Origin: a virus
Length of the DNA: 20,006 nt
IMG/VR virus record: IMGVR_UViG_3300034021_000201
Coordinates: 1-20,006 of that record
Strand: one strand, 5' to 3'
Shown here: positions 5,817-20,006 of the stretch, one piece after another
Numbering within the stretch: position 1 is the first letter of the stretch
Layout: every line of letters begins with the position of its first letter
The notes under the pieces: model-generated
The model's input: the letters and a program-made list of their open reading frames with translations, nothing else
Told to the model about the DNA's origin: nothing
The model's database searches: none
Made by a program: the position numbers and the translations under genes

Positions 5817-5958
5817 TTTAGGTATATTTCCAGGTATTGTATTTGGAATTAGAACGTATGAGTATGATCATCAACAGTACGCTGATCACGTTCTTTATTT
5901 TGGTTGTTTCGATATATGTTTAACTATATTTGAAGATAATGATTTCTATATGGGATAA
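5797..5958 (+). CDS. Small acidic hypothetical protein
   Basis: This 53-codon ORF overlaps the preceding basic ORF by 20 bases and the following oxygenase gene by 20 bases. The product starts MKDWEISLGIFPGIVFGIRT and continues with Tyr-Glu-Tyr-Asp-His and a Leu/Phe-rich half. It is acidic and hydrophobic, with no clear transmembrane helix or known motif. It is similar in style to short phage proteins of unknown role. Support comes from the gene spacing and sensible composition only. Confidence 0.5.
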   Translation: MKDWEISLGIFPGIVFGIRTYEYDHQQYADHVLYFGCFDICLTIFEDNDFYMG

Positions 5959-6511
5959 TTTATTAGGCAAACCTACTGTGACTAAAGAACTTGATAGAGT
6001 TATTGCAGAAGGTTTCGATGAACATATAGTTGGAGATAAATCTTTTTATGTTAATATGCCAAGTAAAGAATTTGACAAAAACATAGTAACAACTTTACAA
6101 AGAATACATAGATCAGATATAGACAAAGTACTTAGCTTTATTAGAGTTGCCACTGATAAACTAGATACAGACTGGCGTATACATTCGGATCTTAATATAA
6201 TGGGTCAAAGACCAGATAGAGCCGCTGTGCTATACATGTCACCTAGAGTTATAGATGATCTTCATGGTACAGCTTTTTGGTCACATAAAACTTACGGTAA
6301 TTTTTTACCTAAATACGTTACTGATGAAGAATTTAATAAAATGATAACTTCTGAAGCAAACGAAATGGATCAATGGAAACTAAGATCTGTTATCGGTTAC
6401 GAACAGGATAGATTAGTTGATTATGATGCTAGTTATTTTCATAGCAAATATCCAAACAAAGCATGGGAAGATGGTAGAATAGTATATGTAATATTTTATA
6501 ACTTTAAATAA
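5939..6511 (+). CDS. 2-oxoglutarate/Fe(II)-dependent oxygenase-like protein
   Basis: This 190-residue protein shows the double-stranded beta-helix iron-site pattern of 2-oxoglutarate oxygenases. His82-Ser-Asp84 (IHSDL) is the first ligand pair, His168 (SYFHSKYP) the distal ligand, and Arg180 twelve residues later the likely 2-oxoglutarate anchor. The fold is supported by the beta strands around them (AAVLYMSP, GRIVYVIFYN). It resembles the DUF6445/prolyl-hydroxylase-like oxygenases frequent in marine phages. Targets of these proteins are mostly unknown: protein side chains or modified nucleobases are both possible. It lies in the nucleotide-enzyme run. The ATG at 5939 is preferred over a TTG at 5930 in the same frame. 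The family call is fairly firm; the substrate is open. Confidence 0.72.
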   Translation: MISIWDNLLGKPTVTKELDRVIAEGFDEHIVGDKSFYVNMPSKEFDKNIVTTLQRIHRSDIDKVLSFIRVATDKLDTDWRIHSDLNIMGQRPDRAAVLYMSPRVIDDLHGTAFWSHKTYGNFLPKYVTDEEFNKMITSEANEMDQWKLRSVIGYEQDRLVDYDASYFHSKYPNKAWEDGRIVYVIFYNFK

Positions 6512-9662: not shown

Positions 9663-12600
9663 CTATTCTTCTCTATTTTTAATATTAGTCATTTCTGATT
9701 CTTGTGCTTTTCTTTCTTCTAATTCATTAGATATTTTTTCAAATTCTTCTACGTTACTACCTTCTCTTATAGATATATTATTCATTTCTATAAAGTCTTT
9801 AACTGTAAGTGCAGGTTCTACTTTTTTATACTTTTCGAACGTTTTTCTTTGAGACTTACTCAATGGATCTTTAGCCATTTCCTGTTTCAAACGTGGATTA
9901 AATATATTTAACCAAGTTTTCTTATTCTTTTTAGTAGGTTTAACTTTAGGTTCAAGATCTTTCATTTCCATATATTGTTCTTCAGTAAGTGCAGGTTCTA
10001 CTTTTTTGTATGACTCAAAAGTTTTTCTATCACTCTTACTTAAAACATCGATAGGTTCTGATTTTTCTTCTATATTTAAGTTATATTTATTGTAACCTAA
10101 TAACAACATTGTTCTTTGCCAAGTTTCTAATGAACTATCAGAAGCTAATCTTAAGTTTTCTATTTTTTGAAATATTCTATCAGCCGGTATGTTATAAACA
10201 GCTGACAATACTTTTGCCGCTGAACCGTAAGCTGGATTATCTAAAGACCAACCTGCTTCTTGTGATTTTTCTATTTCTTGTTTGTATATAAATGTTCTAC
10301 CAGCACTAACTAGTTTGTTCATCTTACTACTCATGGCTGGAGATATCGATAGTATTTCTAATGGTACCTCTTGTGGATTTTTTCTTCCAGATAACTCCAT
10401 TTCATACCATTTCTGCCACATGTTTTTAGCTGTTGAAGCTATCGCTCCGTACATACCCGATCCTTTTAATAAAGAATCTAATATACCGTCAACTGTAGAA
10501 GCTAATGCTTGATCTTCATATATGCTTTTTTCTTCAGTTTGTTCATCATCATCTCCAAATATAGACGCAAAAAGAGCATTTTGTAAGAAAGAGAATATCA
10601 TATTGTTTATTGCTCCATAGTATATTATCTTAGCAGCATTTTTCTTCCAATCACCTCTTTTATTAGCGATATCTAGAAACGCTCTCTTCATTAATCTATT
10701 ATATTGCATGGAAGTATTACCAAAAGCAAAAACTAATCTACCTATATTAGTTGATTGTATTTGTGATACTTTATCAGGTCTTGCAGATTGGTTAGTTGTT
10801 TCTGTTCTTTCAGACCAATCAGATATAGCTTGATCATGTGCTTCTTCTTCTGTGTATCCTATATCAATATAACGATTATAATGATTTCTATAAAAACTAG
10901 CACCACCTAATGCAGCAGATATAGAGTCGGCATATTTTGTTGGAGCAAAACCTGCTTCGCTGATTTTAGCGATTAGTTTTTTAAATCCATTTTTACCAGA
11001 AGCAGCTGTAGCAATATCATCGGCACTAACATCAAATCTTAAACCTCCACGTCTATCTAAAAGATAATCTTCATTCCATAACATTACAAAGTCTTTCCAA
11101 AACTGTTTTTGATTAGCAAAAGCTAAACCAGCAGCTACTGGATTGTTTATTTCCATGTCTATGTAGTTTATAGTAGCTGTTAACTGTAACAAAGCTGATC
11201 TAGTGTTAAAGAACATGATATTTGCATTAGCACCATTTATCCATTCTAACCATCTATTTGATTTAGCATCTGATTTATTATTTATATTTCTACCAGTTTT
11301 CATTCTATGAAGAGAACTTTCTAAAGCGTTTCTGAAATTCAAACCATATATAGCTTGTACTTTATCTAAGTTCTCTGGACTAAATACTTCGTCAACATGA
11401 CTTTGCCATATTTCTAAATGGAATTCTCTTCTTTCTCCATTCATGTAGTCAATTATATCTGTAGAAATAGTACCACCAAGCCAACTGTTATTATAAGGAA
11501 CGTATCCTAGTTTTCTTTTAGTTATTTTCGCTAACTGTTCTGCGTATTCTTTTAATTCTGGACGAGCTCTTACAAATTCAACTACTATTTCTAGTTCGTT
11601 TTCAGGAATCATTTTTATATCTTCTCCCTGTTTACTCCAAAGATATAATCTTATTGCTTGGTCTACCGTATAATTTGTAGAATAAATAGTAGATCTTAAT
11701 GTAGAGTTCTTTATTCCGCTTACGTTTTTTAACTCTTTATAATCTCTAATCATCTGCATCTTCTCTTTGTCATAATTATTTATAGCAGAAGAGAAAGGTT
11801 GTATTAGATTATCTTGAAAGAAGTTCCAAGCTCTTTCGCCATTTTCACCAAAAGGCAAGAAAGAATATAATAATCCAGAGAAGTCTTCTGCATCTGGAGG
11901 TAAGAAGAATCTAAATCTTCCTTTACCTCTACCTTTAACATACGCTGTAGCAGGTGAATATTTTTCTCCAGTAGGTATGCCTGTTTTCTGTTCTAATATA
12001 GAATTAAATCTAGTACCTAAATCCATAAATGCCCATTGTCCAAAACTAGCTTTTACTCTACTTTTATTTAAATCTTCATCTAATTTGTTTAACTCATCTA
12101 TAATCTTTGTGTTACTCATCTTAGAAACTTGTTCTTTAGAAAAAGCGGTAGAGTTTAAAAGTAATTCTTTGTTAGACATCCTAGCAACTTTTTCAAACAA
12201 CACAATCTTAGCTTTTATAATATAAGATTTTATTTTTTCACTAAAATATTCTATAAATTCTTTGAATTTAGGATTTTTATCTATTAATTTAGATATTAAA
12301 GAATCATACGTGTTTGCTCTTCTTGATATATCAACCATTTGGTTAAGTATACTGATTCCTTGTGAAGCAAATAAACCGTTATCTTTTAACCAATTCTTAG
12401 CCCATAAAGATGCTTTAGTAGTAGGTGTGTCTCTGTCTAATTGTTTAGCTATTTCACTTAAGTAGTTAGGAGCTAATTCGTTACCTAAGAACTCTTGTTT
12501 CTCTTCAAACTTAGATCTAAACTCTTCGTTATTGGCAAATAAATCCATAGTCATATCAAAAGATATTTCTTCTGCTATAGTATCTATCAATGCTGTTTTT

Positions 12601-15600
12601 CTAGTACTTCTAGTTGTTAAACCAACATATTGGCCTAAGAAATAACCATAAAAATAAGCCTTATCTATATCTTTTTTTCTAGTAACTCCATTTCTCCAGC
12701 TCTTACCGTCTTCTTTTATTTGAACAAATTCTTGTCTTCCATAATTATCTAGTACTGGTTCTGTGAATTCCTGGAAACGTTTGTTCATTACAGATATTGG
12801 TAAAGCATCATATAAAACTTTCCAATACTTATTAATGTAATAAGCATAATCTGTTTTAATACCAAACTCTCTTCTTAGTATAGCGGTAATATCTAATCTG
12901 ATTTCTCTTTGCATATACTGTTTAAATTCTTTAGAATTTACGTTTGGTATTTTGCTATTAAGAATTCTTATTAATTTAGTTTCTATATCTTTTACAGTAC
13001 TAGGTTCCATACCCATAGCTTCTGTAAGATCAACTTTTCTTTTAGCTACTTTATCGTGAAGATCTTCTTCTTCTTCAGACATTAACTGTTTAGCTCCTTC
13101 ATCAGATAATTGATTACCAAATGCTCTTTCTTGACCTGCTTTGGTTTTTACAGTACCAATGTTCTCTAAAATACGAGGAATACGTCTAGGTAAAATACCA
13201 TTAAGATACGCACCAAAATTATCATTCTTTTGAGGATCATAAGTACGTATTAATTCAAAGAATTGAAGGATAAGTTCTTCTTTTAAATCGTCTTGAGTAA
13301 ACGCAGTTTCATCTTGTTGATAATCCCAGTAACGTTTAGATAGATTATATATAAGACCCATGTTGTTAGCCAAAAGATCCATTTTTACTTTATCTCTTGT
13401 TCTTTCGTCTGTATTAGGATCTTTAAATATCTTCATTAAAGCAGAGTTTCTTTCAGAAATCTTTTGATTTTTTTCAGAAACGCCTTTTATAGATTCTCCT
13501 TCTGGTTTATTTAAGAAATCATTTATCTCTCTAACTCTAGCAATATTATTGTTTATTGTAGTTTGATCTTCCTCTGATTTAGTTTGACCACTTTTGTACT
13601 TAGAAGCAATATCTGTATTTATTTTTATAAGTTCTCTTTTTTCATCTTGTAAAACAAGTTTATTAAAAGAAAGAGACGCTTTAACACTTACATCAGAAAT
13701 TATATCGTTTAATCTTCTTTCTGTATCTTTTACAGTTACTAAGTTAAGTCCTTCATTAACTGCTTTCATTATAGGATTTTTATCCTCTTCTCTTTCGTTA
13801 ACTATCTCAGCAGCATATTCTATATTTTGATACATTACCCCAACGTTTTCGTCGGATACTTTACCCCAATAGTTTTCTACACCTCTATGTAATTCACCTA
13901 ACAAATCTAAAGCTATATTAGTAGGTATTTTTCTTGGTTTGTTTTCTTGTGTATAATCAGATATAATGCGTAAAGAAGGTTTAACGGTATTATTTATAGC
14001 ATCGTCGATAGATTCATTTACTTCTTTTTTAAACATTTCTGTTTTATAGAAATCATCTAACGAAACAACTCTACCACTTGGCTCGATGTATAGCACATCG
14101 TAGTCTTTACCTACTTTGTAAGAATAATCACTTATCGGAAGTTCATTACCTTTAAATTCTGGACTATAAGCTGTATAACCATCTGCATCAAAAATTTGTT
14201 GGTCATTTTTATTCATTACAAATCCATGATAGTTTTTTATCAATTCATCGTATTTTGACTTAAACTCCTCTATACTTGAACTATGTTTTATATTGTCAAG
14301 CATGTTACTTAAAAACGTAATGCTTTTTAATGGATGTTCGTAGTGAAATTGTTGTACAGACTGTTTTCCAGTTCTTTTACTTGTTTTTATAAAATAACCA
14401 GGAGTTATACTAAAGAATCTAGGAAATGCCAATTGTCTAGAAATAGCGGTTCCATTAGAAGACATTAACGACATTATAGTAGATATAAATCTAAGATAAC
14501 TAAGTTTATCTTCACTATCTAAATATTCGTTAAACAATGTTTCAAAGAAATATGCACCAGCATCTTTAATTGAATCTTCATTACTTTTACTTAAAACTTT
14601 AGAAAGAGCTTCTTTAATATTATTACCAAGTTCTACTTTTTCAGCAAGTGTAAGATCTACCGATGCATTAGTATCAACTTGGCGTTTTTTTATTAATTCA
14701 TCAGCTATTTCTTGTCTTCTTTTATCTATAGCAACTCTTTGTTCTCCAGTAAAATCACTTAAAGTCTTTTGTGTCTCTGTTTTGAATTCTTTCATAACAG
14801 CGTTGTAAGAAGCCGAATCAATATCAATATTATTTATCTTTTGTCTTTTATCAAAGAAATCAGATATAATCTTACCAATATTGTTTTTCATTGGTTCTAT
14901 ACCAACAGCTTTATAATCATCTATTGATTTTAATCTTTTATCGTTTATTACTTTTTTAAACCTAAACTTACTAGAGAACTGTTCATAACTAGTAGGATCA
15001 AATATACCGCCGCTACCTATCGCTATCTTTTTAAGAATATCTGTTTTGTGGAATCTTTCACCAAGTAAGTATGCTAATCTGTTAAGATCTGCTTTGAACA
15101 TCTTAATTTCTCTATCAAATTGAGATTGTTCCATTTTCTTACCTCTTCTAGAACCTTTCTTTAAAACATAAGAAGTAGTGAATACTTTTTCAGCGGATAC
15201 TATCTCTATTGCTAAATTTCTAATATCATCTTCAGATAAATCTTCAAGTTGTTTATCTTTTCTAGTTTTATCTTCTTCTAATATTTCTTCTATCTTACTT
15301 TGAATATCTTGTTCTGATATTGCATCTAATCTACTTTTAGAAAGATCTAATTCAAAATCTTCAGCTAATTTAGTCTGTATTTCTTTGGTAGTAAATTCTT
15401 GATCTCTAACTGATTTTGCTAGATCAAAAAAATAACTTTCTAATTCAGACGTATCAATATTACTATATTTTAAATTGTTTTTAGATATAGTGAAAAATCC
15501 TTTTATTTTTTTTAATAAAAGAGCATCAGCTTTATCTCCAGTTTCTTTACCTAATAAGAAACTAGGTAATCTATTATCAACAAAATCTTTTAAAATCTGT

Positions 15601-18600
15601 GTCTTTCTTTTTAATTCTATAGGATTTTTAGACTTAATTTGAAGGGAAGGTTTAACTATAACATCTGTTTTTTGCTTACTGTCTATGCCTTTTTTTATAT
15701 ATCTATTTAAAAAAACTTGTAAACTTTTAACATCTTTTAAATTATCAACTAATCTAACATTAATAGCACCTTTGTTTTGTTGTTTTATATAAGTTTTGTT
15801 TTTCTCATTCAACATATCTCTAACACTATCTATTTTAGAATACATAGATTTAGTGTCTTCGTTAGATAAATAATCCCAGTATTTTTCTACACTATCTTCT
15901 AATTGATTTATTAAGTCATTAAATTCAGGAGTTGTTAGACCAGTTTTTTGAGTTTTACTTATATGATCTTCAACTATTGTTAAAGAAGGTTTAACTTTTA
16001 TTTCATACTTTGCTTTGAATTTAGATTTTGATTTTTCCATTCCATCAATCTTCTTCACTTCGCTAGTCGATGAAACATTACCAATAACTATAACCTCTGT
16101 AAGTTTACCTACTTTATTACCTTCTGGATTTAATCCGTATCCTTCTGTTTCAGAAAACAATTCCTCGTCTTCGTATACAGATTTCATAAAATGCTCTAAT
16201 ACTTCATCTGCTCTATTATCTTTCATTAAGAAATCAACATTAGGTCCAATTCCATTTCTTAATATTTTTAACCTATACTGTTCATAAGATTCATTAAAAT
16301 TATCATACGTTTTTTTCATCCACGCATAATCATCTTTTATCATTTCTTCGGTTATCTCTGGAAAATCTTCGTTAAAAACACGAGAATAATCACTAGATCT
16401 ATTTATATCTGGTATTATTATAGAACCAGGCATATCGTTTAATGTTGATTCATATATAACTCCGTCTCCATAAGTTGGTTCTGCTTTATCGACGGTAAAC
16501 CAAATAGCTACAGCTTCTTTTTGTTCAAAACTACGTTCTATTCCCTGCGAGCCGCTATGAAATAATTTTTGTTTTTTTAGTTTTTCTGTAAAATTAATAT
16601 ATTCTTTAGAACTTGTTAATTTTGGAAATTTTTCTTCAAAACTACCTTTTAACGAAGCTTTTGTTCCTTGATCAAATTTTATAGTTAAAGGTTTTGTAGT
16701 TTGTTTTGCATTTGGTTTTTTAACCAGTTTACCTTCAACAGAACCTTTTTCTAATGCTGCTTTTACTCCTTTAGATAATTCACCTTTTCTAAAAGTTCTT
16801 CTATATTCTTTTATAAAATCATAAACATCTTTACCAGTATCAAATTTAACTATGTCATCTACGTTTTGTATTTTTAATACTTTTCTTAAAAATTCTTTTA
16901 TCTTTTCCCCTAATCTTTGTAAGAAATTAGGATCCATAGATTCCATGCCTATATTATACTTTTGTAATGCGTCACCAACTACTTGTATTAATTCATCATA
17001 AGCATAATCTTGTTTTGTGTCAATCGCGTGTTGTTGATAAGCCTTCACGCCTGCTAGGATGTATTCTAACGCATTCTTTTCGTTCTGACGTGTAGATTTA
17101 CCAAATAATGTTTTAACATGATCTAACAACGCGTCATGTATCTCTTTGTAATCTTCTGGATTTTTACTTACCAACCTATCAAATATAGAATGACCAGGTT
17201 CGTGAGCAAATACACCTTCGCCTTCTATTCTTTCTTTTATGTTGTATATATAGTCAGTTCCGTTAATGTTTGCATTTACTGCTTCTGCTGACTTTATAGT
17301 TTTTAAAAAAGTTGCTTTCTGTGCTTTAGCTTTTGCTTCTGTTAACTCTCCTGCTTCTACTAATTTAGTTAATAATTTATCATGTTGCTCTATAGCTTCT
17401 TCTATTGTATTAACATTTGTAACTTCAATACCAGATAAACCTTTACTTTTTAATATTTCATTAATAGCGCCAACACCTTTTCCTTGTGTTGTAAACATAC
17501 TATTGATAGCAATATTGTTTTGTTTTTCTCTTATACGTTTTAATTCTTCTTTTTTAATTAATACCTCAGCACCATCTTTACCTTCTATTTCTCTTTCTAA
17601 GTTTTTAGCTTTAACTTCTAAATCGTATAAATCTCTTTTTTCTTGTACAGTATAATTACCATCTAGTTTAGATAGTATTTTTGTTTCTTGTACAAGTTTA
17701 TTTAACTCTCTTTTTTTATTATCGTGTGTTTCTTTAAGATCTTTTATTAACTGCTCTTTATTACTAGAATCACTATTGTATATTTCAGTGGCTTGCATTT
17801 TAAGATCTGCAAGTTCTTTACTTAAATTTATTACTTTGTCATAATCAGAAGGAGGCATATCACCTATTCTCTTAACTAGACCTTTCATAATTTCAGAGCT
17901 ACTATCTGTAAGATCTTTTATTTTCTGCTCTATAGCGGTTGATTCTGCAAAAGATAAACTATTATCTTTTAGAAGATTCATATATTTTGCTATTTTTAAA
18001 GCATTATCTTTTATAGTTAATGTATCGTCTTTTGGTAAAAAAGGTTTTACAGCAGCGCCAATTATATGAGGAGCAGATTGTAACATACCAGTTAACAAAG
18101 CAGTGTCTTTAAATACTCGACCAGTATTATCTAATAAACCTACATTTTGACCAAGTATGAATTTATTTACTGAGTTTTGAATTAAGTTAGTTGCCTGTTC
18201 TGAAACGTTTTCATTCAAGAAATCTATACCTTTGTCTTTAAAGAAATCAACTGATCTTTGTTTCAATGTCTTCTGTACAAAGTTAGTATCTCCTTTTAAT
18301 AAAGCATCTAATGTTCTACCTGAACCTTTTAATATATCAACCGTTACTTTTTCACCTAAAGCTTCTGCATATCCCCAAAGTAATGACGAAGCAACCATTT
18401 GTATAGGATTATAATTAGTTTCACCTATATCATTTGATCTAACGTTTTCTAAGTATTTTCCACCAGCACTACCAGCAGCCATTAATTGAAGACTTGGATC
18501 TAACGCCATTTTGTTTATCGTCCAACTAGCAGCTTTTTTTAAAGTAGATTTAGCAGTTTGTTCAACAACTACTTTACCGACAACTTCTGCCGCAACAGTT

Positions 18601-20006
18601 CTAGCGGCTGCAGAACCACCGCCAGACAAAGCCATTAATGTTAAATTTGGTAGTTGATTTGCTATTAAATCAAAAGAATATTCTCCAAGACTTTCAGCAT
18701 CTGTTATCTCTACAGTTTTTTGAAAATAATTATTCCAAAATTCTTCGCTATATTGATTATACCTTGCTATTGTTTTAGTTGTGTCAGAAACATATTCAAA
18801 ATCATCATCTCCAATCGTTTTAGAATATAAATATCTACCAGGTATAGTCGAAAAATCTGCTACTAAAGAACCAAACCCAATTATCTGAGTAAATAAAGAT
18901 TTAAAAGCTGCTGCTGGTTTTAGTATTAAGTTACCAGCACCATAGTGTCTTTTAAATACGTCAAATTCTTGTTCTGCTGTCTGTAAATCTTCCTGTGATT
19001 TATCTAAACTTTTTAAGTTTTCTTCCTGTGCATATTGTAATCCTACTACAGTATTACGTAGATCGTTATAATAATTAAACTTTGATTTGTATTCTTCGTA
19101 TTCTTCTTTACTTTTGAATTTGTAATCTTTAGTATACTGTTTTAAAGCATCTCCTGCTGCTTGAAGTCTAGGTATTGCTGCTTTTACATTTTTTTCAATG
19201 CGTTGATTTAATAATGCTTTGTATTTTGTTTGTTTAGCAGCATTAATAGATGCTTCTTCAGATGCTTTTTTTAACTCTGCTTGTTCTTCATCAGTAGCAT
19301 CTTCCATAAAATCCTTAGCGTTGTTATCATATATAGAAGCTAACTTTTTCTTTCTATATCTTTGAACAGCTAATTTGCGTATTGCATCGTCATTATACTT
19401 ATCTAATGTTTGACTTTTCTTTAACTCAGCTATTATCTCTGCTTTTTCAGTTGAAAACGCGGTATATTTAGTTTTAACAGTATATGGCGCCTGAAAGTCA
19501 CTTTTAGGAACGTATGTAGTTTCTTTTATTTCACCGTCTCTTGACAATTCATTTTTAATTTCTAAATCTAATTCTGACAACTGTTCTTGATTAGGTTTAG
19601 TGTACTGTAAAAACCTAGCGTGTGCTTCTGATTTTTTTCTACGTCTTACAGCAGCAGCAGCATGTTTTGCCTCCCATTCTGCTTCGTCAAGGGCTTTCTG
19701 TTCATTTAAAGCTTTATTTTTTTTAATTTGTTGGTCTTTATATTCATCAGACCACATCATAGATACTTGATCCTCTTTTTTTGGATTTATTTGTTTATCA
19801 AGATATGCTCCAAAGTCATTAACACCAGGAATTATCTTAAGACTATTGTTTAATGACGCCGAAGAACCAGTTGCCTTTTTGGATGCCCCATTTTTTTGAC
19901 CTGTTGCGACAGCACCCTTTGCAGCAACAGTTTTCTTCTTTCCCGGCGTTACTGGAACATCTTCTTGAATATTACCTTGTTCTTTTATACCAAATTGTTT
20001 AACTGC
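9663..20006 (-). CDS. Giant multidomain polyvalent (probable ejected virion) protein, 5' partial
   Basis: The gene runs leftward and its frame stays open to the window edge, so its start is missing; at least 3447 codons are present. Numbering here is from the first Met in the window (19760); 82 more codons precede it without a Met. Parts in order: charged helices (1-280), a hydrophobic Gly/Ala-rich region (about 280-576), a coiled coil (590-790), a zincin motif HEPGH (853-857), an ADP-ribosyltransferase-like domain (1034-1256), a module found twice (1257-1369 and 1927-2026), a sigma-70 region 2-like part (2127-2206) and a long C-terminal half with a hydrophobic helix near 3040-3070 and a tandem repeat. 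This mix is typical of phage polyvalent proteins that are packaged in the head and ejected with the DNA. No single enzymatic role can be given. The frame is intact throughout. Confidence 0.88.
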   Translation of the reverse strand, partial: AVKQFGIKEQGNIQEDVPVTPGKKKTVAAKGAVATGQKNGASKKATGSSASLNNSLKIIPGVNDFGAYLDKQINPKKEDQVSMMWSDEYKDQQIKKNKALNEQKALDEAEWEAKHAAAAVRRRKKSEAHARFLQYTKPNQEQLSELDLEIKNELSRDGEIKETTYVPKSDFQAPYTVKTKYTAFSTEKAEIIAELKKSQTLDKYNDDAIRKLAVQRYRKKKLASIYDNNAKDFMEDATDEEQAELKKASEEASINAAKQTKYKALLNQRIEKNVKAAIPRLQAAGDALKQYTKDYKFKSKEEYEEYKSKFNYYNDLRNTVVGLQYAQEENLKSLDKSQEDLQTAEQEFDVFKRHYGAGNLILKPAAAFKSLFTQIIGFGSLVADFSTIPGRYLYSKTIGDDDFEYVSDTTKTIARYNQYSEEFWNNYFQKTVEITDAESLGEYSFDLIANQLPNLTLMALSGGGSAAARTVAAEVVGKVVVEQTAKSTLKKAASWTINKMALDPSLQLMAAGSAGGKYLENVRSNDIGETNYNPIQMVASSLLWGYAEALGEKVTVDILKGSGRTLDALLKGDTNFVQKTLKQRSVDFFKDKGIDFLNENVSEQATNLIQNSVNKFILGQNVGLLDNTGRVFKDTALLTGMLQSAPHIIGAAVKPFLPKDDTLTIKDNALKIAKYMNLLKDNSLSFAESTAIEQKIKDLTDSSSEIMKGLVKRIGDMPPSDYDKVINLSKELADLKMQATEIYNSDSSNKEQLIKDLKETHDNKKRELNKLVQETKILSKLDGNYTVQEKRDLYDLEVKAKNLEREIEGKDGAEVLIKKEELKRIREKQNNIAINSMFTTQGKGVGAINEILKSKGLSGIEVTNVNTIEEAIEQHDKLLTKLVEAGELTEAKAKAQKATFLKTIKSAEAVNANINGTDYIYNIKERIEGEGVFAHEPGHSIFDRLVSKNPEDYKEIHDALLDHVKTLFGKSTRQNEKNALEYILAGVKAYQQHAIDTKQDYAYDELIQVVGDALQKYNIGMESMDPNFLQRLGEKIKEFLRKVLKIQNVDDIVKFDTGKDVYDFIKEYRRTFRKGELSKGVKAALEKGSVEGKLVKKPNAKQTTKPLTIKFDQGTKASLKGSFEEKFPKLTSSKEYINFTEKLKKQKLFHSGSQGIERSFEQKEAVAIWFTVDKAEPTYGDGVIYESTLNDMPGSIIIPDINRSSDYSRVFNEDFPEITEEMIKDDYAWMKKTYDNFNESYEQYRLKILRNGIGPNVDFLMKDNRADEVLEHFMKSVYEDEELFSETEGYGLNPEGNKVGKLTEVIVIGNVSSTSEVKKIDGMEKSKSKFKAKYEIKVKPSLTIVEDHISKTQKTGLTTPEFNDLINQLEDSVEKYWDYLSNEDTKSMYSKIDSVRDMLNEKNKTYIKQQNKGAINVRLVDNLKDVKSLQVFLNRYIKKGIDSKQKTDVIVKPSLQIKSKNPIELKRKTQILKDFVDNRLPSFLLGKETGDKADALLLKKIKGFFTISKNNLKYSNIDTSELESYFFDLAKSVRDQEFTTKEIQTKLAEDFELDLSKSRLDAISEQDIQSKIEEILEEDKTRKDKQLEDLSEDDIRNLAIEIVSAEKVFTTSYVLKKGSRRGKKMEQSQFDREIKMFKADLNRLAYLLGERFHKTDILKKIAIGSGGIFDPTSYEQFSSKFRFKKVINDKRLKSIDDYKAVGIEPMKNNIGKIISDFFDKRQKINNIDIDSASYNAVMKEFKTETQKTLSDFTGEQRVAIDKRRQEIADELIKKRQVDTNASVDLTLAEKVELGNNIKEALSKVLSKSNEDSIKDAGAYFFETLFNEYLDSEDKLSYLRFISTIMSLMSSNGTAISRQLAFPRFFSITPGYFIKTSKRTGKQSVQQFHYEHPLKSITFLSNMLDNIKHSSSIEEFKSKYDELIKNYHGFVMNKNDQQIFDADGYTAYSPEFKGNELPISDYSYKVGKDYDVLYIEPSGRVVSLDDFYKTEMFKKEVNESIDDAINNTVKPSLRIISDYTQENKPRKIPTNIALDLLGELHRGVENYWGKVSDENVGVMYQNIEYAAEIVNEREEDKNPIMKAVNEGLNLVTVKDTERRLNDIISDVSVKASLSFNKLVLQDEKRELIKINTDIASKYKSGQTKSEEDQTTINNNIARVREINDFLNKPEGESIKGVSEKNQKISERNSALMKIFKDPNTDERTRDKVKMDLLANNMGLIYNLSKRYWDYQQDETAFTQDDLKEELILQFFELIRTYDPQKNDNFGAYLNGILPRRIPRILENIGTVKTKAGQERAFGNQLSDEGAKQLMSEEEEDLHDKVAKRKVDLTEAMGMEPSTVKDIETKLIRILNSKIPNVNSKEFKQYMQREIRLDITAILRREFGIKTDYAYYINKYWKVLYDALPISVMNKRFQEFTEPVLDNYGRQEFVQIKEDGKSWRNGVTRKKDIDKAYFYGYFLGQYVGLTTRSTRKTALIDTIAEEISFDMTMDLFANNEEFRSKFEEKQEFLGNELAPNYLSEIAKQLDRDTPTTKASLWAKNWLKDNGLFASQGISILNQMVDISRRANTYDSLISKLIDKNPKFKEFIEYFSEKIKSYIIKAKIVLFEKVARMSNKELLLNSTAFSKEQVSKMSNTKIIDELNKLDEDLNKSRVKASFGQWAFMDLGTRFNSILEQKTGIPTGEKYSPATAYVKGRGKGRFRFFLPPDAEDFSGLLYSFLPFGENGERAWNFFQDNLIQPFSSAINNYDKEKMQMIRDYKELKNVSGIKNSTLRSTIYSTNYTVDQAIRLYLWSKQGEDIKMIPENELEIVVEFVRARPELKEYAEQLAKITKRKLGYVPYNNSWLGGTISTDIIDYMNGERREFHLEIWQSHVDEVFSPENLDKVQAIYGLNFRNALESSLHRMKTGRNINNKSDAKSNRWLEWINGANANIMFFNTRSALLQLTATINYIDMEINNPVAAGLAFANQKQFWKDFVMLWNEDYLLDRRGGLRFDVSADDIATAASGKNGFKKLIAKISEAGFAPTKYADSISAALGGASFYRNHYNRYIDIGYTEEEAHDQAISDWSERTETTNQSARPDKVSQIQSTNIGRLVFAFGNTSMQYNRLMKRAFLDIANKRGDWKKNAAKIIYYGAINNMIFSFLQNALFASIFGDDDEQTEEKSIYEDQALASTVDGILDSLLKGSGMYGAIASTAKNMWQKWYEMELSGRKNPQEVPLEILSISPAMSSKMNKLVSAGRTFIYKQEIEKSQEAGWSLDNPAYGSAAKVLSAVYNIPADRIFQKIENLRLASDSSLETWQRTMLLLGYNKYNLNIEEKSEPIDVLSKSDRKTFESYKKVEPALTEEQYMEMKDLEPKVKPTKKNKKTWLNIFNPRLKQEMAKDPLSKSQRKTFEKYKKVEPALTVKDFIEMNNISIREGSNVEEFEKISNELEERKAQESEMTNIKNREE
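9774..10049 (-). repeat. Tandem protein repeat at the C-terminus of the giant protein
   Basis: Residues 3238-3269 (bases 9954-10049) and 3298-3329 (9774-9869) are the same motif, exactly 60 residues (180 bases) apart. The first 22 positions share 19 residues, including LSKS, RKTFE and YKKVEPALT. A Lys-rich linker lies between. It may be a binding motif used twice, for example for packaging or a virion partner. Confidence 0.9.
13143..13382 (-). other. Sigma-70 region 2-like domain within the giant protein
   Basis: Residues 2127-2206 follow the sigma-70 region 2 pattern. NNMGLIYNLSKRYWDY corresponds to the first helix, then comes an acidic helix (FTQDDLKEELILQFFELIRTY), then YDPQKNDNFGAYLNGILPRRI, equivalent to the FDP-KG-x-FxTYA segment of sigma factors. 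In real sigma factors this part binds the core polymerase clamp and the -10 element. The match is by eye; no region 4 was recognised after it. Confidence 0.55.
13791..13982 (-). repeat. Duplicated protein module, copy B
   Basis: Residues 1927-1990 begin KPSLRI and contain GVENYWGKVSDENVGVMYQN. They align without gaps with copy A 670 residues earlier. Eleven of 31 positions in the core (1960-1990) are identical. Confidence 0.75.
15801..15992 (-). repeat. Duplicated protein module, copy A
   Basis: Residues 1257-1320 begin KPSLTI and contain SVEKYWDYLSNEDTKSMYSK. Both copies start with K-P-S-L, and both have the Val-Glu-x-Tyr-Trp signature exactly 34-38 residues after the Lys. The module runs about 110 residues to the next K-x-S-L tetrapeptide (1370). 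Confidence 0.75.
15993..16661 (-). other. ADP-ribosyltransferase-like domain within the giant protein
   Basis: Residues 1034-1256 have the layout of phage ART-like domains: FHSGS with His1068 in the first motif, IWFTVDKAEPTYGDG with Phe1088-Thr1089 in the second, and VIYESTL just after. Such enzymes move ADP-ribose from NAD to host proteins. The final catalytic Glu is not securely identified. The domain starts at a KASL tetrapeptide and ends at KPSL. Confidence 0.5.
17190..17204 (-). other. Zincin motif HEPGH within the giant protein
   Basis: His853-Glu-Pro-Gly-His857 in VFAHEPGHSIF matches HExxH, the zinc-binding and catalytic helix of zinc metallopeptidases. Glu-containing helices follow about 70 residues later and could give the third ligand. 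Such domains are common in polyvalent phage proteins. Protease activity is plausible but not shown. Confidence 0.6.

Follow-up and report, generated by a model that had tools for sequence, protein, structure and literature searches.

A sigma2-like domain in a giant, probably particle-borne protein of a marine bacterial virus

The giant gene and its surroundings

The window, by which we mean the whole analysed stretch of 20,006 nucleotides, is the entire source record (IMG/VR record IMGVR_UViG_3300034021_000201), which is too short to show a stand-alone sigma gene of its own. More than half of it is occupied by a single gene on the minus strand, P0001, which encodes a giant protein. Its frame runs open as far as the edge of the window, so that the 5' end of the gene lies off the window and the protein has at least 3,447 residues. 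A relative, L002, is 87% identical to P0001 over the first 1,106 residues, the N-terminal third, and the alignment starts at L002 residue 33, which places approximately 29 N-terminal residues of P0001 outside the window. The remainder of the window carries, on the plus strand, a replication and nucleotide gene cluster that encodes an exonuclease, a primase-helicase (nearest match in Cellulophaga phage phi10:1), a thymidylate synthase, MazG, an endonuclease-like protein and a ribonucleotide reductase. Amid the nucleotide-metabolism genes lies 5930-6511, which received the PHROG label minor coat protein and a weak Pfam match to DUF6445; by eye, the end of its product (FHSKYPNKAWEDGRIVYVIFY) looks like that of a 2-oxoglutarate oxygenase type protein.

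An earlier note on this DNA had flagged 13143-13382 as resembling sigma-70 region 2. The stretch is real: both motifs quoted for it are present on the minus strand, and its plus strand is interrupted by stops. The residue numbers given with it (2127-2206) had been counted from an internal ATG (19760, minus strand) and were corrected; true numbering is approximately 111 higher, since the frame is open to the edge and, by the L002 alignment, continues beyond it. In the open-frame numbering used here, the flagged stretch corresponds to P0001 residues 2209-2288, approximately, and the structural domain delimited below, of about 106 residues, is larger. The features of the giant gene are as follows.

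9663..20006, minus strand: giant protein gene P0001, a single open frame, 3,447 aa in the window
17187..17204, minus strand: HEPGHS, a zincin-type HExxH motif (motif position)
13155..13472, minus strand: sigma region 1.2-2.4-like domain, P0001 2179-2284 (AlphaFold2 model, VIA-align, sub-threshold Pfam and NCBIfam matches)
13326..13367, minus strand: NNMGLIYNLSKRYW, equivalent of the region 2.1 helix (motif position; alignment A5)
13242..13295, minus strand: acidic helix, equivalent of region 2.2, P0001 2238-2255
13191..13241, minus strand: YDPQKNDNFGAYLNGIL, equivalent of the FDP-x-G-x-F-x-TYA segment (end of region 2.2 to region 2.3)
13035..13154, minus strand: linker, P0001 2285-2324, mostly disordered (pLDDT mostly <50)
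12429..13058, minus strand: partner domain of no known family, P0001 2317-2526
9870..12122, minus strand: all-helical, strongly conserved C-terminal domain with a predicted fold as in phage polyvalent proteins

Resemblance of the domain to sigma region 2

Sigma70_r2 (PF04542) was the Pfam family found at the flagged place, over residues 2214-2275. Its E-value varied with query length, from 0.019 (3,447 aa) through 2.4e-3 (451 aa) to 1.7e-4 (100 aa), and the best score of P0001, 21.7 bits at the last of these values, lies under the gathering cut-off of 24 bits. The NCBIfam sigma70-ECF model matched the domain with E 1.4e-3, and SigI and FliA/WhiG models gave weak matches as well; every single-sequence score for the P0001 domain is under the curated cut-offs. 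The lowest-E matches in a tblastn search of phages with the window domain were Bacillus phage sigma factors (E 0.1). A Streptomyces phage Abafar match from tblastn (E 0.8), in a gene that adjoins an NlpC/P60 gene, was rejected as chance. Sigma factors were absent from a phmmer search of the PDB with the single window domain. The single-sequence evidence was thus weak, and a family profile was needed.

With just the sigma-like part as query, scans of viral contigs returned zero relatives. The conserved C-terminus as query yielded 49 related giants and then many more, and the lineage is large, with at least 586 IMG/VR stretches that encode the C-terminal domain. A working set of 139 giants (138 relatives and the window protein) was used, and domains were counted with iterated HMMs seeded on the window copy. 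The sigma2-like domain was detected in 80/139 giants and the partner domain in 74/139. Both were found in 51 proteins, always in the same order, with the partner domain C-terminal of the sigma2-like domain and a spacing of 23-67 residues in 48 of the 51. Because HMM iteration can drift, this fixed position relative to a separately modelled partner is the main check on the counts. Among the 126 proteins longer than 1,800 aa, 101 carry at least one of the two domains and 25 carry neither. The partner domain has 210 residues and a GTRK motif, and matched nothing by PDB profile or NCBIfam. Region 3.2 and region 4 had been suspected by eye in the linker and partner domain; the suspicion was dropped because the profile tests were empty: neither the PDB profile nor hhalign nor NCBIfam gave the partner domain a match to region 4.

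When a profile of 73 copies of the sigma2-like domain was compared with all PDB sequences, the five best matches were sigma factors (E 0.004-0.03), and with an earlier profile of 32 copies a sigma factor ranked first (E 0.002). Control profiles made from the C-terminal and partner domains of the same giants returned no sigma factor from the PDB. Sigma models accounted for 10 of the 11 best matches of the family consensus in NCBIfam. Taken singly, only the window copy and a few others scored with Pfam (5/73 members). An hhalign comparison with an alignment of stand-alone phage sigma factors gave E 3.4e-4, in register, at a probability of 38%, compared with E 0.08 and 0.25 for the controls. Descent from a stand-alone phage sigma was considered; the profile similarity is real, and a recent duplication is not shown by it.

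An AlphaFold2 model of P0001 2160-2535, built from a 50-sequence alignment, had a mean pLDDT of 84, with most of the sigma-like part (model residues 20-125) above 90; the linker came out disordered and the partner domain confident. Model residues 20-125 span regions 1.2 to 2.4, in that region 1.2 is followed by the three-helix sigma2 core (2.1, 2.2 and 2.3-2.4). All 50 of the 50 entries listed by VIA-align were sigma or sigma-complex entries, with Z-scores of 8.8-11.1, a measure that is inflated for helical domains. Typical rmsd values were 2.2-3.3 over 92-105 residues with identity up to 26%, and the isolated SigA domain 2 (4x8k) matched with Z 9.5 and rmsd 2.3 over 97 residues. Foldseek also ranked sigma chains first, though weakly (E ~0.1), so that the sigma2-like assignment rests on the agreement of several weak-to-moderate lines. 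These results indicated that residues 2179-2284 are a domain that folds, in the predicted structure, like sigma regions 1.2-2.4. The resemblance to sigma region 2 claimed in the earlier note is thus upheld by a profile match, a structural match and an acidic helix that is kept as a property in homologues.

The segment D2240-Y2256 corresponds without gaps to D403-F419 of E. coli sigma70, and D2240, E2243 and E2244 align to D403, Q406 and E407, which are core-binding residues of sigma70. Columns 2240, 2243 and 2244 are 57, 51 and 42% acidic, respectively, against a domain mean of 14.5%. They make up the most acidic i,i+3,i+4 triple of the domain (rank 1/64), are poor in K/R, and have an acidity reached by 30 of 200,000 random triples of exposed columns. 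An acid occupies the D403 equivalent in just 45/80 copies, so that the acidic face is kept as a tendency and not as fixed residues. The equivalents of F419 and Y430 are aromatic in 80/80 copies, and the most conserved positions are core residues. In sigma70, W433, W434, Q437 and T440 serve -10 recognition; their equivalents are not conserved among the 80 copies, and of the -10 reading and melting set (these four and Y430) the Y430 equivalent alone is kept, as an aromatic residue. Retention of the acidic triple and loss of the -10 residues indicated that conservation favours the polymerase-binding side over the promoter-reading side. A region 2.2-like acidic surface is present, and binding to the beta' clamp helices is predicted from it. 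We refer to the region as a sigma2-like domain and not as a sigma factor, since its scores stay under the curated cut-off and it does not retain the residues for -10 reading.

The giant as a particle protein and the transcription machinery of its relatives

In a relative with a 63.7 kb record (G012), the late operon encodes terminase, portal and capsid-type proteins, and the giant is its last gene, bar three short frames. The portal and structural proteins are akin to those of Cellulophaga phages phi38:1 and phi40:1, Flavobacterium Elemovirus, and Tenacibaculum and Maribacter phages. The last gene of the corresponding operon of phi40:1, gp101, is annotated as a structural protein from experimental MS/MS. 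In blastp comparisons (E-values down to 4e-35), several giants proved to be related in their N-terminal parts to gp101 and to the giants of Elemovirus and ctfjg026; the link of the window copy to gp101 runs through its relatives. By HMM, the sigma2-like, partner and C-terminal domains are all missing from gp101 and from the giants of Elemovirus and ctfjg026. Together with the 25 long giants that have neither of the first two, the phi38:1 and Elemovirus giants indicate that the module is not essential to this type of phage.

The C-terminal domain (alignment A3) gave no Pfam or cultured-phage match by sequence, despite its presence in hundreds of uncultured viral contigs. Its structure model matched the predicted structures of phage polyvalent proteins in BFVD (E ~1e-7 to 1e-4, beyond its own close relatives), and the best VIA match, the PhiM1 ejectosome (Z 5.5), is weak and suggestive in kind. 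An HExxH motif is found in 119/139 giants, and in the window copy the zincin assignment is by motif only. Polyvalent proteins have been proposed to enter the host together with the DNA (PMC5512222). The suggestion that the giant is probably ejected has therefore gained indirect support, from synteny with an MS/MS-detected virion protein, the HExxH motif and the polyvalent C-terminal fold. We infer that the giant, which is probably carried in the particle, serves a short-tailed Bacteroidota phage as an ejection protein of the polyvalent type.

A separate sigma factor of approximately 250 aa is encoded in 16 of the 18 larger records of relatives. A T7-type polymerase (PF00940) was not detected in these 18 records, in a search run without a positive control. 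The possibility that the giant itself is a polymerase found no support in a motif search of the 139 giants, in which no conserved polymerase motif was seen; DxDGD occurs in four of them, near the C-terminal end, and is not conserved. With a stand-alone sigma in the relatives and no T7-type polymerase detected, host core is the obvious partner, and the lineage most likely works through host core RNA polymerase.

Two further observations concern the stand-alone sigma factors. In most copies of this conserved protein (L142-L157; for example G012:C1:44485-45234, minus strand), the C-terminal tail ends in ...SQVLDYL, similar to bacterial beta-clamp binding motifs of the QLxLF type and reminiscent of T4 gp55. 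In the 18 records, no beta clamp of phage origin scored over the cut-off, so that the host clamp may be the partner of the stand-alone sigma. One stand-alone sigma gene (G005:C1:65743-66500) is spread over two frames, has a TAA inside and thus looks frameshifted or misassembled.

Possible roles of the domain and comparison with known systems

Phages that depend on the host RNA polymerase are known to begin with the host sigma factor or to inject modifiers, for example T4 Alt. With a sigma2 module, an ejected giant would grip the core enzyme directly from the first moment of infection, and the presence of the module suggests that the particle could deliver a handle on the host transcription machine along with the DNA. 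The best explanation of the whole, to which we give an even chance of being correct, is that the module docks the ejected giant on the host RNA polymerase core. After ejection, the domain would grip the beta' clamp helices of host core by way of its acidic 2.2 face, in the manner of sigma2 and T4 gp55. Docking would set the ejected complex and the incoming DNA beside a polymerase, and the gain would be early capture of host core at the entering genome. The captured core could then be put to early transcription or DNA pulling, or host sigma could be excluded from it, and the separate phage sigma that relatives encode would serve the later phage genes. The sigma2 domain of gp55 binds clamp helices outside a conventional sigma factor (PMC7892883), and T7 gp16 has been described as a recruiter of host RNA polymerase at DNA entry (PMC12633501). 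Binding to host core polymerase and the transcription switch, both suggested in the earlier note, are predictions, since region 4 was not found and the residues used for -10 recognition are not conserved.

Alternatively, the domain, perhaps with the partner domain, may be a virion-delivered promoter factor, which would guide host core to the early promoters of the phage. The sigma2 fold includes region 1.2, the Y430 equivalent is invariably aromatic, the partner domain is conserved in constant order, and T4 gp55 has a sigma2 domain that can recognise a -10-like element although a conventional region 4 is missing (PMC7892883). However, the W433, W434, Q437 and T440 equivalents are not conserved and the partner domain has no region 4 match, which makes promoter-specific initiation by the domain alone less likely, and we regard a promoter factor as rather unlikely. 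There is a comparably small chance that the ejected giant works as a tethered sigma2 and sets host RNA polymerase to transcribe the first phage genes, with a free phage sigma, produced inside the cell, acting later; such a particle-delivered sigma would correspond, on the side of the host polymerase, to virion and non-virion RNA polymerases.

It is also improbable that the domain is a decoy for host shut-off, which would occupy the beta' clamp and block the host sigma holoenzyme while starting no transcription. Retained acidity of the clamp face together with loss of the -10 reading residues would fit a decoy, and polyvalent proteins have been proposed to act on host systems (PMC5512222). Early phage genes would need host holoenzyme too, however, unless it were spared, and few copies of the giant per virion would be expected against thousands of polymerases. 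Reuse of the sigma2 fold as a helical building block in a threaded protein, where it makes no contact with polymerase, would agree with conservation that is strongest at core residues (the F419 and Y430 equivalents) and with accessory modules that vary among giants and a domain that phi38:1-type giants lack. Yet no triple in the domain is more acidic than the one at the clamp-binding positions, and K/R are scarce there, which the fold alone does not demand; structural reuse is unlikely. Chance resemblance of an unrelated helical domain is very improbable: the single-sequence matches all fall under curated cut-offs, but a single register emerges from the sequence profiles, the consensus, the structure model and the residue pattern, and the controls are silent.

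The domain shares with sigma-70 regions 1.2 and 2 (SigA, RpoS, RpoD) the predicted fold, the helix order, an FDP...Y-like segment and the acidic 2.2 helix, and differs in that it sits in a giant virion-type protein, scores under the Pfam cut-off, and lacks the -10 aromatic pair, Q437/T440 and a detectable region 4. T4 gp55 likewise has a sigma2 homology domain without conventional region 4, and its acidic helix contacts the clamp helices (PMC7892883); gp55 is small and free and has a tail that binds the sliding clamp, whereas the domain described here is part of a predicted particle protein. Virion RNA polymerases (N4 vRNAP, crassvirus gp47/49/50 and the P23-45 tape-fused RNAP) are comparable as giant virion proteins that address transcription at entry, but no conserved polymerase motif was seen in the giants described here, and their partner would be the host polymerase. 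Also comparable are gp101 of Cellulophaga phi38:1/phi40:1 (Callevirus) and the Elemovirus giant structural protein, each the last late-operon gene with a related N-terminus, which differ in the domain content described above. A search of the accessible papers, largely outside the subscription literature, turned up no report of a sigma domain within an ejected virion protein.

The polyvalent proteins of phages and plasmids (PMC5512222) resemble the giant in their giant multi-domain build, zincin-type HExxH, C-terminal fold and, in relatives of the giant, kinase/Zeta-type cassettes. The word 'sigma' is absent from the text of that study, so that a sigma2-like domain is not among the polyvalent domains described there. 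Peptidase_M78, Zeta_toxin and AAA_33 domains occur in the giants of some relatives. Between the partner and C-terminal domains (alignment A2), relatives carry exchangeable cassettes of the Zeta-toxin/AAA_33/polynucleotide kinase type, and a DFDxT...LTARP stretch in the A2 consensus has the look of a HAD phosphatase.
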